64,000 nt of DNA, taken from contig AP019005.1 in assembly GCA_003945285.1 (NCBI GenBank), positions 1,874,001 through 1,938,000 of the forward strand, read 5' to 3'. The notes beneath the pieces are model-generated. The model worked only from the letters and a program-made list of their open reading frames with translations. It was not told the DNA's origin and made no database searches. Shown in pieces: positions 2,334-9,420 of the stretch. The first letter of the stretch is position 1, and every line of letters starts with the position of its first letter. The DNA is from Hydrogenimonas sp. Lineage in GTDB: Bacteria; Campylobacterota; Campylobacteria; Campylobacterales; Hydrogenimonadaceae. A program made the translations under genes and the position numbers.

Positions 2334-3152
2334 TCACTCCTCTATCCGCGCCCTGAGCGCCGTCTCCTTCTCGCCTTCACTGTAGACCTTCACCTTGTAG
2401 GCCTCCACGGCGCGCCCGTTTTCAAGCTCCATAACGACCATCTGCAAAATCGACCTGCACTTGTCCGGCACCTCGAAACGCCCTGGAAGACCGGTAAGGA
2501 ACCGCTCTATGGGAACCTTCGCATCCATCCCTATAACATTGTCGCGGCAGCCTGTAAGCCCTACGTCGCTCACATATGCGCAGCCTCTGTCTATGACCAG
2601 GTCGTCAGTGCCCACATGGGTGTGTGTACCGATGACGGCACTAACCCTTTCTCGAAGCATCATCAGGAGAGCCCGCTTCTCACTGGTCGCTTCAGCATGT
2701 ATATCCACAACTATACTCTTTACGCCCTGCGCCTCCAGCGTATCTACAATACGGCTGGCGACGATAAAGGGGTTGTCGACCATAGGCATTGCGAAGTGGC
2801 CCATGATGTTGACGACGGCAAGCCGCTCGCCGCACACCTCGAAGATCTCCACACCCCTGCCCGGAACCCCATCCGGATAGTTGGCGGGCCGAAGCAGAGG
2901 CATCGTCTCGAGCAACCCTTTTATCTCTCTCTTGTCCCAGGTATGGTTCCCGCCTGTCATCATATCGATACCGGCCCCGAAGAGCTCACGCGCATTCTTC
3001 TCGGTAAGACCGAACCCGTGACTGGCGTTTTCATAGTTGGCGATGACAAAATCGAGCTCCTCCTCGCTTCTTAGCGAAGAGAGAAACTGCCGAACCATCC
3101 TCCGCCCGGGACGACCCACTATGTCACCTATAAAGCCTATCTTAATGTTCAT
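2334..3152 (-). CDS. ymdB: YmdB-family metallophosphoesterase (TIGR00282)
   Basis: A 272-residue calcineurin-like phosphoesterase. Metal-ligand motifs occur in family order: GFIGDIVGRPG at the start, NYENASHG near 40, GGNHTWDKRE near 68, VDIHAEATSEK near 150, and GTHTHVGTDD near 175. In Bacillus YmdB hydrolyses 2',3'-cAMP and affects biofilm genes; here the reaction is inferred. It has its own short upstream region with hairpins (3153-3308) and is followed closely by magIII. Confidence 0.88.
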   Translation of the reverse strand: MNIKIGFIGDIVGRPGRRMVRQFLSSLRSEEELDFVIANYENASHGFGLTEKNARELFGAGIDMMTGGNHTWDKREIKGLLETMPLLRPANYPDGVPGRGVEIFEVCGERLAVVNIMGHFAMPMVDNPFIVASRIVDTLEAQGVKSIVVDIHAEATSEKRALLMMLRERVSAVIGTHTHVGTDDLVIDRGCAYVSDVGLTGCRDNVIGMDAKVPIERFLTGLPGRFEVPDKCRSILQMVVMELENGRAVEAYKVKVYSEGEKETALRARIEE

Positions 3153-3308
3153 TTAATCTTGCCTCCGGCAAATACGATATGACGGCAAAGCCGACATATC
3201 TACGCTGACGCTGAGTCCGCTTCGGCAGCGGGCCCGCCGCGCTGGCGCGGCTTTCGCTTCGCTCACGCCGATTCAATCTACTGCAAACTGCACGCTGCAA
3301 ACTGCAAA
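3153..3308. other. Intergenic segment with several hairpins between sixA and ymdB
   Basis: No gene is seen. A near-perfect 11-bp inverted repeat with a 3-base loop lies at 3176-3200 (GATATGaCGGC / GCCGaCATATC). Further right are the palindrome GCGGGCCCGC and the hairpin GCCGCGC-CA-GCGCGGC. They may end the sixA transcript and/or shape the ymdB leader, but none has a clear U-run. The right end is a heptamer tandem repeat listed separately. Confidence 0.45.
3281..3308. repeat. Heptanucleotide tandem repeat (CTGCAAA-like, 4 units)
   Basis: Four consecutive 7-base units, CTGCAAA, CTGCACG, CTGCAAA, CTGCAAA, ending exactly where the sixA stop codon begins. It is one of three period-7 arrays of unrelated sequence in this window (also 15168-15195 and 58587-58642). 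Confidence 0.7.
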
Positions 3309-3809
3309 CTACCCACTTCTCACTCTCTTCGGATACTCAAAAACAACAGTATGCCCCTGCATCCTGCAAGCATCACTCCATTTCGCCGTATCGAACGCTA
3401 TTCCGACTACACCCGCCGTCGGAATGTTCTCGATCGTGATGTCGCCCAAAATATTCGCCAGCGTCGTGAATCCCGGGTTGTGGCCTATCAGCATAACCCG
3501 TTTGGCACTCTCCGGAAGGTTGCACACCAGATACAAAAGTGTCTGCGGCGAGGCTTCGTAGATGCTCTCTTCCCACTCTATGTTATCTTCCGGGTAGCCG
3601 AGTTTGCAGGCTATAATCTTCGCCGTCTTTTTGGCCCGTTTTGCCGGCGAAGAGATGATCAGGTCGGGCTTTATCCCCAGCTCTTTCAGGTATTCACCCA
3701 TAAGGGGCGCATCCTCTTTGCCACGGCTGTTGAGCGGGCGATCGAAGTCGCTGAGAGCTGGATCGTCCCAGCTCGATTTCGCGTGACGCACCAGAAACAG
3801 TTCTCTCAT
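3309..3809 (-). CDS. sixA: SixA-like phosphohistidine phosphatase
   Basis: A 166-residue histidine-phosphatase-superfamily protein. The N-terminal LVRHAKSSW is the RHG/RHA catalytic motif, the second catalytic His is in MLIGHNPGFTTLA, and SSPAKRAKKTA supplies the conserved arginine region. The short length and lack of extra domains fit SixA, which dephosphorylates histidines on phosphotransfer proteins; the substrate here is unknown. It lies 9 bp after the subtilase stop and is probably the last gene of the mfd-propeptide-subtilase run. Confidence 0.8.
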   Translation of the reverse strand: MRELFLVRHAKSSWDDPALSDFDRPLNSRGKEDAPLMGEYLKELGIKPDLIISSPAKRAKKTAKIIACKLGYPEDNIEWEESIYEASPQTLLYLVCNLPESAKRVMLIGHNPGFTTLANILGDITIENIPTAGVVGIAFDTAKWSDACRMQGHTVVFEYPKRVRSG

Positions 3810-3818
3810 AAACTCTCC

Positions 3819-4916
3819 TTAAAGGGCCTGAATCACCCTCAGTACATTTACCTTGCCGTAACCGCAATAGTCACTGTGGCCGTTGACATCATAACTGCAT
3901 TGTGCAAAATCTATCTTGTCGGCATAGCTCTCCAGCAGATTGACCAGCTGTTCTCTAGTAAGGTTGGAGTCGGCTTCCAGCAGAAGTGCGGATACACCGG
4001 TGACGATGGGTGCCGAAGCGGAAGTACCTCCAAACGCGTTGTTCGCATTGTAGGTAAGGTAGTTACCGGGATCATCTCCGGCAGAGCCCGTTCGGTCAAG
4101 TGTAGCTATACCCATATACTCTCCTCCGGGAGCCATGATGTCGAGCTCAGGGCCGTAATTGCTGTATCTGGTTCTCTCATTGAATATATTTGTGGCTCCG
4201 ACGGCTATCACTTCCTCAATACCTGACTCATCGTTTCCTATAGGATCTCCTACCCCGTCATCTCCGCCGTTCCCGGCAGCAAAGACCACTATCGTCCCCT
4301 TTCCGCCTCTGCCGTTAATTGCCACATCTCTTATGGCGGCCGCTACGGGAGCGCTGACATCACCGCTGCCCCAGCTGCAGTTGATCACATCCGCCCCCCA
4401 ATCTTTTGCCTTCTGAAACGCATCTATTATCATACTCTCGGTCAGTGAGGAGTTGAAAGGTATACGTATAAAATATATCTGGGCCCCAGGCGCTATTCCA
4501 GATATTCCGAGAGAGTTGCTGGTTGCTGCAGCAACTCCCGTAACTTCTGTGCCGTGGTTCTCTTCACCGTTTCTGGGAAGGACATTGGATGTCCCGCTTT
4601 CGGCATCGTAGGTTGCAATGACACCATCTTTTATATCTTCATGATAGATATCCAGAGCATCATCAATAATTGCGATTTTTACACCCCTGCCCGCATACTC
4701 CGTTGTGGGCCAGGGGTGGATATTGGCATCCGGGTCTATACTGTATGCGGCATAGAAGTTGTCATCTTTGTGAAAGTACCACTGTTGGTAGTAGAGCGGG
4801 TTCGACCCGTATGGTGCCACGCTCCTTTGGGTAACACTCTGACTGCTGCTATCTTCCACGCACCCCTGAAAAAGTATTGCGACCGAGACGGCCAGGCCAT
4901 AGATAAAGAGTCTCAT
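3819..4916 (-). CDS. Subtilisin-like (S8) serine protease, lipoprotein
   Basis: A 365-residue secreted protease, counted from the ATG at 4916, which overlaps the upstream stop as ATGA. The signal peptide ends in the lipobox-like FQGC (Cys19). The catalytic triad reads Asp85 (IAIIDDALD), His121 (HGTEVTG) and Ser299 (GGTSASAPI), with the oxyanion Asn216 in AAGNGG. The mature domain follows the signal closely, with no room for an I9-type propeptide. That domain appears instead as the separate upstream gene at 4913-5308. The target is unknown. An ATG 12 bp further upstream is possible but less well coupled. Confidence 0.88.
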   Translation of the reverse strand: MRLFIYGLAVSVAILFQGCVEDSSSQSVTQRSVAPYGSNPLYYQQWYFHKDDNFYAAYSIDPDANIHPWPTTEYAGRGVKIAIIDDALDIYHEDIKDGVIATYDAESGTSNVLPRNGEENHGTEVTGVAAATSNSLGISGIAPGAQIYFIRIPFNSSLTESMIIDAFQKAKDWGADVINCSWGSGDVSAPVAAAIRDVAINGRGGKGTIVVFAAGNGGDDGVGDPIGNDESGIEEVIAVGATNIFNERTRYSNYGPELDIMAPGGEYMGIATLDRTGSAGDDPGNYLTYNANNAFGGTSASAPIVTGVSALLLEADSNLTREQLVNLLESYADKIDFAQCSYDVNGHSDYCGYGKVNVLRVIQAL

Positions 4917-5308
4917 CTCAGACTCCACTCTCTGACGATATCCGGCTGCGCAAAGATTACATCGGGCTTCCCATACAGAAGGTTTGCAGCCTCGAGAGCC
5001 TTTTGCGCGCTCTCTGCCTCCAGAAGATAGATATCGCCGATATCGTACCGCTTCAGCAGTTTCAGGCCGTACTCCTCCAGATATTGCCGGATATTGTCCG
5101 AAGATTCGAACTTGACCAAAATACGTCCTGAGATACCTATCTCACTGCCGTCACTCTTCTTGAAGTATAGTATATCTTCGCCTAACGAATGTTTTTTCAC
5201 CGTCGTAACAGGCCCGTACAGCTCCACGGGCCTGTCGCCGTTCATATAGCGGTACTCTCCGGCAAACAGAGAGAGTGCACCCAAAATAAGTACTGCAGAC
5301 TTTTTCAT
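4913..5308 (-). CDS. Stand-alone subtilase propeptide-like (fervidolysin/I9-type) secreted protein
   Basis: A 131-residue protein with a signal peptide (MKKSAVLILGALSLFAGEYR). The C-terminal half resembles an N-terminal prodomain of subtilases: GRILVKFESSDNI, then a helix (QYLEEYGLKLLKRYDIGDIY), then YGKPDVIFAQPDIVREW, the usual end of such domains just before the protease starts. Known propeptides fold and inhibit the attached protease; here it would have to act in trans. Its start overlaps the mfd stop by 4 bp and its stop overlaps the protease start by 4 bp, so the pair is translationally coupled. Family assignment is from pattern only. Confidence 0.65.
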   Translation of the reverse strand: MKKSAVLILGALSLFAGEYRYMNGDRPVELYGPVTTVKKHSLGEDILYFKKSDGSEIGISGRILVKFESSDNIRQYLEEYGLKLLKRYDIGDIYLLEAESAQKALEAANLLYGKPDVIFAQPDIVREWSLR

Positions 5309-8286
5309 TTCCTGTTGCTCCTTAGATACTCCAACACGGTCGATATGAGGTCGTCGTCATCCCTGCTTCGTGCTTTCAGCAGAGTTTTGTTCTCCTCATT
5401 ATACTGTACCGTGATGTTTTCGTTATAGTTGCTGATACGTTCGACTCCTCTTTTCGCCGCCAGTATCTTTATGGTGACAAGATCGAGAAACTGTCTCGTA
5501 GGAAGGTCTGGTCGCCCGAACCGGTCCTCTATCTCCTGCTCAATCTCCACTACGTCGTGCGTATCGGATAGCCCGCTGAGACGCCTGTAGAGCTCAAGCC
5601 TCACACGCTCATGCGGAACGAGCTCTTCCGATATGTACGCAGTGATAGATAGTTTAATATCGACACTTTTGCGCTCCGGTGCAGCTTCACTGCTCAAAAC
5701 CCTTATCGCATCCTCCAGCATCCTCAGGTAGAGGGCGTATCCGATCTGTTTTATATGCCCGCTCTGGCTCTCCCCTATCAGGTTGCCGCCTCCTCTTATT
5801 TCGAGATCGTGGTACGCAAGTACCGCTCCGCTGCCGAGGAACGAGTTGGACTCCAGGGCTATCAGGCGCCTTTTGGCCTGATCAGTCAGCGCATCTTTGT
5901 TCTCCACCAGGAAGTAGCAGTACCCCTCGACCTTTCCGCGCCCCACCCTTCCGCGAAGCTGGTGCAGATCTGCCATTCCGAAGCGGTCAGCTCCGTCCAC
6001 TATCATCGTATTGACGCGCGGCATATGTATACCAGACTCTATGATCGATGTGCTAAGAAGCAGATCGTACTCGCCCGCTTCAAAACGTAGCATCTCCTTT
6101 TCCGTCTGTGCCGCGGTTATCTTCGAGTGCAGAACGGCTATTCGCAGATCGGGCAGGATCTCCAGCAGTTCATCTTTTTTGCTCTCGATTCCGGCGATTG
6201 AATTGTATACATAGAAGAGCTGCCCTCCCCTGCGCAACTCCCGCATCACCGCCTCTTTTACGACCGTCTCGTCGAAGCTTTTGACGAATGTCCTCACACC
6301 CTTTCTCTCGGTTGGAGGGGTGCGCAGTTCACTGTACCCTTTGATTTTGCTCAGCGCCATATTGAGGCTTCTGGGTATCGGCGTGGCGCTCATGCTAAGA
6401 AGGTGCACATCGGCACTCATCTGCTTCAGTGCCTCCTTCTGTTTGACTCCGAACTTATGCTCCTCGTCTATGATGACGAACCCCAGCCTCTTGAACTTCG
6501 CCCCCAAAAGTGCGTGTGTACCTATGACGAGATCGAGATCACCGCTCTCCAGCTCCTGCAGGATCTGCCGCTTCTCTTTAGCGCTCGTGAAGCGGTCCAG
6601 TTTCGCTATTCGCAGACCGAAAGGCTTCAGCCTCTCGCTGACACTCTTGAAGTGCTGCGCGCTCAGGAGTGTAGTTGGTACGACGAATGCGCACTGGTAA
6701 CCGGACTTCACCACGGCCAGAATAGCGTTCATCGCCACCTCTGTCTTTCCGAAGCCCACATCTCCGCTCAAAAGCCTGTCCATCACACGGCCCGAAGAGA
6801 GGTCGGCGAATATCTCCTCCACCGCCTTTGTCTGATCGGGGGTGTACTCGAAGCCCGCCGCACGCTGAAACTCAACTATCTCCGGCACCTCCGTATCTAT
6901 CACGGCACCCTCTATCAACATCCTCTTCGCCGACATGTTTATGATCTCGGATGCTATGGCGAAGAGCCTCTCTTTCACCTTCGCCTTGAGCCTGCCGAAA
7001 CTCCCTTTGCCAAGCCTGTCCAGTACCGGAAGAGATCCCCCTTCCGCTATGTAACGGTCGATCATATCGAGATTTTCGACCGGCAGCAGCAGCGTATCGT
7101 CGTTCTGATAGGCTATATGCACGAAGTCGCGTACCGCTCCCAGAACCTGATGCGGCTCTATCCCTTTGAAGATTCCGACACCGTAGTTCTCATGTACGAC
7201 GTAGTCGCCGGGCTTAAGATCGTCGAGCAGTATCGTCGGACGCTTCACCGCCCGCTTTCTGAACGGCTTGTTCAGAGATACGATGATCTTTTCGGGAGTC
7301 AAAAGGTTTACTATTCCATCATCTCTTACGATCTCCGCTCTCGCCATCTCCTTTATCGGACTCCGCCTGACGAGAGCTTCGGAGGAGGCGATGATGACCA
7401 GCTTCCGCTCCGGGTAGTTCTCCGTAAGAGTATCGACATTGATCGGCTCTATCACTCTGCTCTTCTGCGCGGGAGGTAGCGTCGGCAGGTCGAAACGCTC
7501 TTTGGGAAGCGCCTTTTTCGCATCTTCGTAGGCGAACGCCACCTCTTCGGAGATATCACCGGCAAAGATCCCCTCTTTTCCTTCCATGAGGTCGCAGGCC
7601 ATATCTTCAAGATACCAGAGTCCCAAAGATGCGGCATCTTTTACAAAGACGTCACTCCCGCTCTTCTCTATTCGTGCGGAGAGCGAGTCGAACTGCTCTT
7701 TTGTCAGGGAGAAGAGCGCAGGTGCTATCTCCACCTCCTCCAGCTCATCCTCCCGGCTGGACTTCTGGCTCTCAACTTCGAATCTTCTTATACTCTCTAT
7801 CTCGGTATCGAAGAGGCTGATTCGCCACGGCTTTTCACTTCCGGGAGAGAAGATATCGATAATATCCCCCCGTATAGAGACCTCCCCTTTCGTCTCCACC
7901 ACATCCACGAAGCTGTAGCCCCACAGGTAGAGCCGCTCCTTGAGCTCCTCCGGGTCTATCTCCTGTGCGAAGGAGAGTCTCATGCTCTTCAAGAGCTCAG
8001 GTCCCGGCAGCGGGTAGAGCAGTGTGCGCAGCGGCGCTATCAGGAGGCTCTCCGCTCCGGAGCCGTAGTAGCGTCTCAGGGCGCTGTTTAACTCGAAGAG
8101 CTCATCGCGCCAGCTGCGCAGATCTTCTCCGTAGACCGCCCTGAAGTCCGGAAGTACCGTGGAACCGATACCGTGAAGTTTCGCGACCGTCGCCGCGGTT
8201 CGCGCATCTTTGTCGTTTTCGCAAACGATTATCTGCGGCCTTTCGCCGCTTTGAAAGTAGTCATACAGTGAGGCTTCAAACCCCAT
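5305..8286 (-). CDS. mfd: Transcription-repair coupling factor Mfd
   Basis: A 993-residue SF2 translocase that removes stalled RNA polymerase and recruits UvrA. The N-terminal UvrB-like region is followed by the polymerase-binding CarD-type domain (LKPGDYVVHENYGVGIFKGI), the helicase motifs (P-loop GDVGFGKTE near 507-515, DEEH in VIIDEEHKFG), motif GRVGRGKVEGYCY and the C-terminal TRCF domain. It is somewhat shorter than the 1,148-residue E. coli protein, as usual in Campylobacterota. It follows the bactofilin gene by 4 bp. Confidence 0.96.
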   Translation of the reverse strand: MGFEASLYDYFQSGERPQIIVCENDKDARTAATVAKLHGIGSTVLPDFRAVYGEDLRSWRDELFELNSALRRYYGSGAESLLIAPLRTLLYPLPGPELLKSMRLSFAQEIDPEELKERLYLWGYSFVDVVETKGEVSIRGDIIDIFSPGSEKPWRISLFDTEIESIRRFEVESQKSSREDELEEVEIAPALFSLTKEQFDSLSARIEKSGSDVFVKDAASLGLWYLEDMACDLMEGKEGIFAGDISEEVAFAYEDAKKALPKERFDLPTLPPAQKSRVIEPINVDTLTENYPERKLVIIASSEALVRRSPIKEMARAEIVRDDGIVNLLTPEKIIVSLNKPFRKRAVKRPTILLDDLKPGDYVVHENYGVGIFKGIEPHQVLGAVRDFVHIAYQNDDTLLLPVENLDMIDRYIAEGGSLPVLDRLGKGSFGRLKAKVKERLFAIASEIINMSAKRMLIEGAVIDTEVPEIVEFQRAAGFEYTPDQTKAVEEIFADLSSGRVMDRLLSGDVGFGKTEVAMNAILAVVKSGYQCAFVVPTTLLSAQHFKSVSERLKPFGLRIAKLDRFTSAKEKRQILQELESGDLDLVIGTHALLGAKFKRLGFVIIDEEHKFGVKQKEALKQMSADVHLLSMSATPIPRSLNMALSKIKGYSELRTPPTERKGVRTFVKSFDETVVKEAVMRELRRGGQLFYVYNSIAGIESKKDELLEILPDLRIAVLHSKITAAQTEKEMLRFEAGEYDLLLSTSIIESGIHMPRVNTMIVDGADRFGMADLHQLRGRVGRGKVEGYCYFLVENKDALTDQAKRRLIALESNSFLGSGAVLAYHDLEIRGGGNLIGESQSGHIKQIGYALYLRMLEDAIRVLSSEAAPERKSVDIKLSITAYISEELVPHERVRLELYRRLSGLSDTHDVVEIEQEIEDRFGRPDLPTRQFLDLVTIKILAAKRGVERISNYNENITVQYNEENKTLLKARSRDDDDLISTVLEYLRSNRK

Positions 8287-8290
8287 ACAC

Positions 8291-8605
8291 TCATCCTTTT
8301 GTTGTTCGTATCGCTTCTATACTGCCCAGGCACTCCGCACCTTCGTAGAGCTCAAGCTCTATAGCCCATATATCACCGTATACGGTTCCGCCGATGTAGA
8401 CATCCCTCGCCTCCACATCTCCCTTGACGACTCCGGTGGAGGTCACGATGACGTAGCTTTCGGCTTTGACGTCTCCTTCGACCTCTCCGTCGATATGGAC
8501 TCCCCCCGAGCTGAAGATGGAGCCTTCGACTCTTGTTCCCGGGGCGATGACGGCGGTATCGCCTGGGCCGCCATCTGACTTATCAGTGCTATGAAAGATT
8601 CCCAT
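8291..8605 (-). CDS. ccmA: Bactofilin (CcmA-like polymer-forming cytoskeletal protein)
   Basis: A 104-residue bactofilin starting at MGIFHSTDKSD. The core carries the repeated beta-helix pattern typical of DUF583: GTRVEGSIFSSGGVHIDGEVEGDVKA, continuing to GDVEARDVYIGGTVYGDI. In Helicobacter pylori CcmA works with Csd endopeptidases to set helical cell shape. The first 163 bp lie inside the 3' end of the upstream M23 peptidase gene in another frame, an arrangement also reported in Helicobacter. A longer version from 8656 is open but starts deeper inside the peptidase gene. Confidence 0.88.
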   Translation of the reverse strand: MGIFHSTDKSDGGPGDTAVIAPGTRVEGSIFSSGGVHIDGEVEGDVKAESYVIVTSTGVVKGDVEARDVYIGGTVYGDIWAIELELYEGAECLGSIEAIRTTKG

Positions 8606-9420
8606 GGTACCTTCTTTACCTTTTTGAATATCGAGCTGTAGCTCTCTCTTTTCCACTTCAGAAACGGATAGGGGTTGAGCGGCCGGGTCAAAAAGCGGAT
8701 TTCATAGTGCAGATGCGGAGCGGTACTGAGACCGCTGTTTCCGCTGAGTCCTACCAGGTCCCCTTTTATAAGTGTATCACCTGTACGCACGTTCACCTTT
8801 TTGAGGTGGCCGTAGTAGGTTTTGAAACCGAAACCGTGGTCTACTATGACCAGGTTTCCGTAGCCGCTCCTCTTGTGGTAGCCGGCATACTCGACGACTC
8901 CGTTGGCCGTAGTCCAGACAGGCCTGCCGTTCTTGGCCCTCAGGTCGATTCCTGAGTGAAACTCTCTGCTTCCCTTTATCGGGTGTTTTCTCCAGCCGAA
9001 CGCGCTTGTAACACCATTCATGGGAAGCGGTGCCCCGCTCGGCACCATGGAGAAAAGAAGCGCAAGCTGGGCCGCCGAAAGGGTGACGTTCCGGATCCTG
9101 GCCGAGGCGGAGAAATCCTTTCCGGGCTTCTCCCCTACGAAAATTTCTAGATCGCTCAGGCGGTCACCGAGACGTGCAAGAGCCTCCTGGCGCTCTTCAA
9201 CCATGCCGTTCAATACGGAGATCTCATGCTCCAGAACCTTCTGTCTAAGCTTTGCCTCTTCATAGGCGTTTTCCAACCACTTCACATAGACGTAGGTTGC
9301 CGCCGCACCCAAAAGAAAGAGGGAGAATAATCCGATAAGCAGCCGTTTGAATATCTGCCCGAGTGTAAACTGCCTGAAGCCCCTTGTGTCGGTAACAGTG
9401 ATCAGTATCTTATGTTTCAT
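8443..9420 (-). CDS. M23 family metallopeptidase (Csd1-like peptidoglycan endopeptidase)
   Basis: A 325-residue membrane-anchored cell-wall endopeptidase. One transmembrane segment (about 25-46) is followed by a coiled coil (50-95) and the LytM/M23 domain. Zinc ligands are visible: His155 and Asp159 in FHSGIDL, and His236/His238 in HLHYEIR. GNLVIVDHGFGFKTYYGHL is the conserved middle strand. In Helicobacter the neighbouring homologue trims cross-links for curvature together with CcmA, whose gene overlaps this one here. The Ser/Lys-rich tail after residue 295 is encoded by the overlapping region. Its ATG overlaps the folC stop by 4 bp. Confidence 0.9.
   Translation of the reverse strand: MKHKILITVTDTRGFRQFTLGQIFKRLLIGLFSLFLLGAAATYVYVKWLENAYEEAKLRQKVLEHEISVLNGMVEERQEALARLGDRLSDLEIFVGEKPGKDFSASARIRNVTLSAAQLALLFSMVPSGAPLPMNGVTSAFGWRKHPIKGSREFHSGIDLRAKNGRPVWTTANGVVEYAGYHKRSGYGNLVIVDHGFGFKTYYGHLKKVNVRTGDTLIKGDLVGLSGNSGLSTAPHLHYEIRFLTRPLNPYPFLKWKRESYSSIFKKVKKVPWESFIALISQMAAQAIPPSSPREQESKAPSSARGESISTERSKETSKPKATSS

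Follow-up and report, generated by a model that had tools for sequence, protein, structure and literature searches.

In the window, the whole 64,000-nucleotide stretch of Hydrogenimonas sp. DNA analysed here, a subtilase and a prodomain protein are encoded by two adjacent genes, and we consider it probable that this pair is a subtilase zymogen made as two proteins: an ORF2-like external chaperone and inhibitor, and a kexin-like lipoprotein protease. A division at the maturation site would allow the enzyme to keep its N-terminal anchor. Subtilases mature with the help of a cis intramolecular chaperone that is removed by autoproteolysis. An earlier note, made from the sequence alone, had placed a split subtilase at positions 3819-5308; both reading frames were found exactly there on the minus strand, with the ATGA overlap of start and stop that it described at 4916-4913 (Table 1). 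A further ATGA, at 5305-5308, joins the stop of mfd to the start of the prodomain gene. Just upstream of mfd (8291-9420, minus strand), a bactofilin-like gene and an M23 peptidase gene lie in different frames and overlap by well over 100 nt.

Table 1. Features of the split subtilase locus, in positions of the window
Feature	Positions	Strand	Basis or detail
Prodomain gene, 131 aa	4913..5308	-	ATG start at 5308, stop at 4913; C-terminus ...REWSLR*
Lipoprotein S8 subtilase gene, 365 aa, without cis prodomain	3819..4916	-	ATG at 4916, stop at 3819
ATGA stop/start overlap of prodomain gene and protease gene	4913..4916	-	Sequence
Predicted Sec-type signal peptide of prodomain protein, residues 1 to ~17 (cleavage site approximate)	5258..5308	-	MKKSAVLILGALSLFAG, no lipobox
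Fervidolysin_NPro-like prodomain core, residues 59-123	4940..5134	-	Pfam PF22148
Arg131, last residue of trans prodomain	4916..4918	-	Alignments and register with fused chains
Predicted lipoprotein signal peptide of protease; putative lipid-acceptor Cys19, codon 4860-4862	4860..4916	-	...AILFQGC
Peptidase S8 catalytic domain, residues 76-354, kexin/furin-like fold (predicted)	3855..4691	-	PF00082 and Foldseek
mfd, directly upstream of prodomain gene (context, outside the mechanism)	5305..8286	-	Open reading frame

In order to characterize the smaller protein, we compared it with domain families and known folds. The prodomain occupies the C-terminal half of this exported protein, where residues 59-123 match PF22148 (Fervidolysin_NPro-like; E=1.2e-6, 29.2 bits at a Pfam cutoff of 21). 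PF18492 (ORF_2_N) reached 13.1 bits on the same protein against these 29.2, and the best member of the family scored 24.2 bits (4.1e-5), under the PF18492 cutoff. The N-terminal hydrophobic segment is conserved among homologues (alignment A1), and between signal peptide and prodomain lies a short conserved module, EYRYMNGDRPVEL in the window and EYYYMNGGKRVEL in most relatives. The AF2 model has a bab-bab core with a pLDDT of about 94. When it was compared with the PDB by Foldseek, the first matches were all subtilase prodomains: that of PC1/3 in its complex with furin (9fid), the ORF2 chain of ASP:ORF2 from Aeromonas (3wqb_B) and propeptides of subtilisins, followed closely by fervidolysin (1r6v). 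The best E-value is a modest 4e-3, which is usual for so small a domain, and the top matches agree. A search of PDB sequences with the prodomain profile gave no true relative, and relatives emerged by the fold search only. The earlier note had read the gene before the protease as a signal peptide plus a propeptide-like domain, and the Pfam match and the fold bear this out, so the objection of an unrelated fold, which the note itself had raised, fails. Three trans prodomains of other loci (L190 at 4893-5282, L054 and L113) have a Cys closing their own signal peptide (LNAC, QVGC and QYGC, respectively), and some trans prodomains may thus themselves be lipidated in places.

The protease carries a single Pfam domain, PF00082 (residues 76-354, E=8e-48), in which the catalytic triad and the oxyanion Asn (D85, H121, N216, S299) are invariant in 23 homologues, as in a Peptidase S8 enzyme. 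Its start is the ATG at 4916; a GTG at 4928 does not correspond to the start conserved in relatives. The lipoprotein signal, MRLFIYGLAVSVAILFQGC, leads to Cys19, which is invariant in 23 of 23 homologues. The window lipobox, ILFQGC, differs from the textbook residues at -3 (Phe) and -2 (Gln), and homologues read LLQGC, LTGC, LAGC or LVAC; from its sequence the protease is probably lipidated at Cys19. No prodomain was found in the protease by Pfam search, and the stretch between the lipoprotein signal and the S8 domain resembles none, so that an enzyme with its own lipoprotein signal and no prodomain, as originally proposed, was recovered. A P-domain (PF01483) or an equivalent C-terminal domain was likewise absent in the Pfam search. 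The predicted structure is closest to Kex2 and furin, and also to mirolase and ASP (Foldseek). Kex2 and furin cleave after basic residues, and the kexin-like fold thus fits the basic C-terminus of the prodomain. D186 and D229 may correspond to the S1 aspartates of furin and Kex2, which is a lead only.

The position of the split was examined in related loci, which were gathered with the protease alignment. The fetched neighbourhoods comprise 47 prodomain-first pairs, 6 reversed pairs and 13 fused chains, and one further fused chain was seen separately (14). Of the 47 prodomain-first pairs, 45 have a trans prodomain with a C-terminal Arg, and the other two end in Lys and Gln; Arg131 is invariant in alignments A1 and A3. 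A conserved P-[DN] motif lies ten residues before the end of the trans prodomain. The fused forms looked for in relatives were present, and in the same register they have an Arg (10/13) with the catalytic module immediately after it; a fused chain reads PDFLVPAKMR/SLDPLFYQQW where the window reads PDIVREWSLR-stop. The claim that the small protein ends where the protease would normally begin is thereby upheld. From its position, this Arg is the likely cleavage site of the fused forms, and because the terminal Arg shares its place with the fused-chain Arg that precedes the catalytic module, the gene boundary coincides with the presumed maturation site.

A characterized precedent is available in ASP of Aeromonas sobria, which matures only with ORF2, encoded downstream; ORF2 has its C-terminal Lys at the ASP catalytic site and inhibits ASP with an IC50 of 84 nM, and operons of the ASP/ORF2 type have been reported in four other genera (PMC5638518). 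The window pair shares with it a propeptide-less kexin-like subtilase, an adjacent gene for a protein of prodomain fold and a basic C-terminal residue, and the predicted folds of its prodomain and protease match chains B and A of 3wqb. It differs in several respects. The chaperone gene lies downstream of the protease in ASP and upstream in the window and most relatives (downstream in L190, L077, L078, L080 and L081); ASP has a P-domain, whereas the window protease is a 365-aa lipoprotein without one; the window prodomain scores as PF22148, not PF18492; and the single-chain relatives of the window pair show a split point at the presumed cleavage site. Because of gene order, P-domain and PF18492, we did not file the pair as a member of ASP/ORF2, and we regard the arrangement as a variant of the known trans-chaperone kind. 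By analogy, the pair in all likelihood works like ASP/ORF2, and the conserved C-terminal Arg is no more than suggestive of ORF2-type maturation and inhibition via the C-terminal residues. The earlier note had called such an arrangement unusual; the split is real, but it is common in Campylobacterota and has its precedent in A. sobria ASP/ORF2 (PMC5638518; PDB 3wqb). Operons closer to that precedent were also seen in Campylobacterota (L077, L078, L080 at 2766-7210 on the minus strand of its locus, and L081), where a lipoprotein with S8 and P-domain (PF01483) is followed by an ORF2-like prodomain gene. All of these proteases have lipoboxes, L080 holds two such pairs in tandem, and most of the ORF2-like chaperones end in residues other than Arg.

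Other known systems share single traits with the pair. Fervidolysin and the other single-chain PF22148-S8 subtilases have the same prodomain family and the same catalytic family, and differ in being one chain with a cis prodomain; those of Campylobacterota (14) have no lipobox. NalP and SphB1 are lipidated S8 autotransporters with an N-terminal lipid anchor and a C-terminal barrel, and we know of no separate prodomain gene for them. They resemble the window protease in the N-terminal lipid anchor on an S8 protease and differ as autotransporters with a barrel; the group is named in PMC9549277. We found no paper on lipidated split subtilases in a literature search that was thin on subscription journals.

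From sequence, predicted models and the ASP/ORF2 analogy, we infer chaperone and inhibitor activity in trans, binding included. Both chains would cross the inner membrane by Sec, the protease would be lipidated at Cys19, and the prodomain would fold in the periplasm and serve in trans as a folding template. Its tail (...SLR-COOH) would then occupy the active site as a cleaved product does, Arg131 filling S1, and the enzyme would therefore stay latent for as long as the prodomain is neither released nor degraded. With the split at the maturation site the enzyme would retain its N-terminal lipid anchor, which a single chain would lose together with the prodomain.

Fervidolysin-type prodomains are possibly dispensable for folding in some subtilases, which counts against the chaperone part of this proposal. 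It could be argued that the protease folds unaided and that the stand-alone prodomain is only a dedicated periplasmic inhibitor, like the yeast protease B inhibitor, POIA1, TgMIC5 and SUB1-ProM, and the terminal Arg and the kexin-like fold would indeed suit product-type inhibition. We nevertheless consider this unlikely. To our knowledge, the targets of such inhibitors are all made with their own cis propeptide, unlike the window protease, and both the coupling of adjacent genes and the need for ORF2 in ASP maturation favour a chaperone role as well. The four inhibitors and Arabidopsis SPI-1 are examples of a prodomain fold that acts on a subtilase as an independent small protein, and such inhibitors exist without a shown chaperone role; they differ from the window prodomain in being eukaryotic, described as inhibitors and free of operon coupling (PMC6993865).

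Returning to the two-protein zymogen, we investigated how consistently the genes occur together. The complete genome contains exactly one S8 and one PF22148 protein, side by side. In 14 of the 17 other genomes of the genus the prodomain is a short ORF followed by a lipoprotein protease, and all 14 relatives with the prodomain also carry the small protease, in the order mfd-prodomain-protease-SixA-YmdB, with the pair between mfd and sixA throughout the genus. The remaining three lack the prodomain and the small protease alike; two of these genomes are <85% complete, and one of the three (G003) has as its sole S8 a 1752-aa protein of a different type. This genus-wide layout is far beyond chance. 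Outside the genus the pair lies in other surroundings and is still together. Matches were obtained in 26 of 397 sampled Campylobacterota genomes from several families; named examples include MAGs of Sulfurimonas, Sulfurovum, Sulfurospirillum, Arcobacter and Thiovulum, and in one locus (L190) the gene order is inverted with lipobox and terminal Arg retained.

Among the 80 best relatives from about 85,000 species genomes, those outside Campylobacterota are nearly all single chains, and the PF22148 matches in 299 Pseudomonadota genomes lie almost all within long frames. In this sample, therefore, the split form with a lipoprotein protease belongs mainly to Campylobacterota. One Pseudomonadota locus (L205, minus strand; G443:C19) has the same split lipoprotein arrangement, with a GTGA overlap and a C-terminal Arg; as it comes from 1 of 78 genomes in its order, horizontal transfer is suggested and is the probable source. 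In two other Pseudomonadota contigs (G642:C18:3325-3950 and G666:C121:4057-4631), a short separate PF22148 ORF directly precedes a single-chain protein with its own PF22148.

Two loci count against our best explanation. L120 (4917-5975) is a lipoprotein subtilase next to trpA without an adjacent prodomain; its genome carries a reversed-order pair on another contig (L190, 3872-5285), whose distant prodomain the lone protease might use. L087 (4992-5396, minus strand) is an orphan prodomain protein ending in STY, beside an unknown secreted protein and with no S8 nearby, and may be a free inhibitor or a relic. Such separate occurrences are what would be expected if the 131-aa protein had another role, such as the inhibition of some foreign or unrelated enzyme of this kind, and its gene lay next to the protease gene by coincidence. 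We judge this highly improbable, because the genome's only S8 and only PF22148 adjoin, both genes are missing together in three genus members, and the pair stays together beyond the mfd neighbourhood, even in inverted order.

We also asked whether the split is genuine. All 15 same-genus loci with the split (14 genomes and the window) have a 4-nt overlap and a prodomain C-terminus of '-LR', and the split was also found in about 30 loci of other Campylobacterota lineages and in the one Pseudomonadota genome. Among the 46 prodomain-first pairs that could be read, about 30 overlap by 4 nt, and the spacing of the others varies between an overlap of 1 nt and a gap of 93 nt. That the two frames overlap, and that about 75 codons before the ATG of the window protease are free of stops in its frame, would fit a single gene broken by an assembly error or a recent frameshift, or joined by programmed -1 frameshifting, but we give this practically no weight. 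Dozens of genomes show the split, and both partners carry export signals of their own. In L057, L084, L092, L112 and L125 the reading frame of the protease closes within 0-2 codons ahead of the start, and the gaps are positive in L053 (7 nt), L107 (24 nt) and L055 (93 nt). At loci such as L057 a frameshifted fusion is excluded, because the frame closes just upstream of the start. The reading as two genes rather than one frameshifted gene was thus confirmed. Decay was seen in the second pair of one genome (L061/L197, G350:C4), where the protease is a C-terminal piece with an internal stop and the prodomain is kept, and the L071 protease is broken into two frames, as in a decaying pair.

In order to relate the split to lipid anchoring, we compared lipoboxes among the loci. 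They were present in 46 of 46 prodomain-first proteases with a readable N-terminus and in 6 of 6 reversed-order proteases, and in none of the 14 fused relatives. These counts come from an automatic scan followed by sequence reading, with a few judged by eye; the lipoboxes of L063, L078, L093, L102 and L114 were assigned by reading and not by the scan. A candidate in L072 was rejected, its Cys lying beyond the signal and being absent in the homologue L073. In the tree, the splits form two supported clades (28 and 12 rows) and a distant reversed-order group, and a single clade of forward-type splits was not rejected (AU p=0.356). The association thus represents 2-3 changes only, and is therefore a strong pattern with few independent contrasts.

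The lipid of a lipoprotein is attached to the first residue of the mature protein, and therefore a removable prodomain between lipid and enzyme would cost the enzyme its anchor. This conflict between anchoring at the N-terminus and removing a prodomain from it would be a topological reason for the split. With confidence evenly divided for and against, we propose that lipidation drives prodomain fission: Campylobacterota subtilases that became lipoproteins would have done so through a break in the gene precisely where maturation cleavage occurs. The prodomain of the resulting two-protein zymogen would have a product-like Arg C-terminus from the outset and need no autocleavage. Lipidation is not the only reason for splitting, since ASP is split and yet reported as an extracellular enzyme (PMC5638518).

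In summary, our results describe a probable two-chain subtilase zymogen that is kept across much of Campylobacterota, with a split that falls at the presumed cleavage site and goes together with lipid anchoring. For annotation they carry a warning: the small gene will probably be labelled hypothetical, and its partner will probably be taken for a prodomain-less protease. The split pair offers a natural system for telling folding help from inhibition, and lipid anchoring provides a testable reason for the split.
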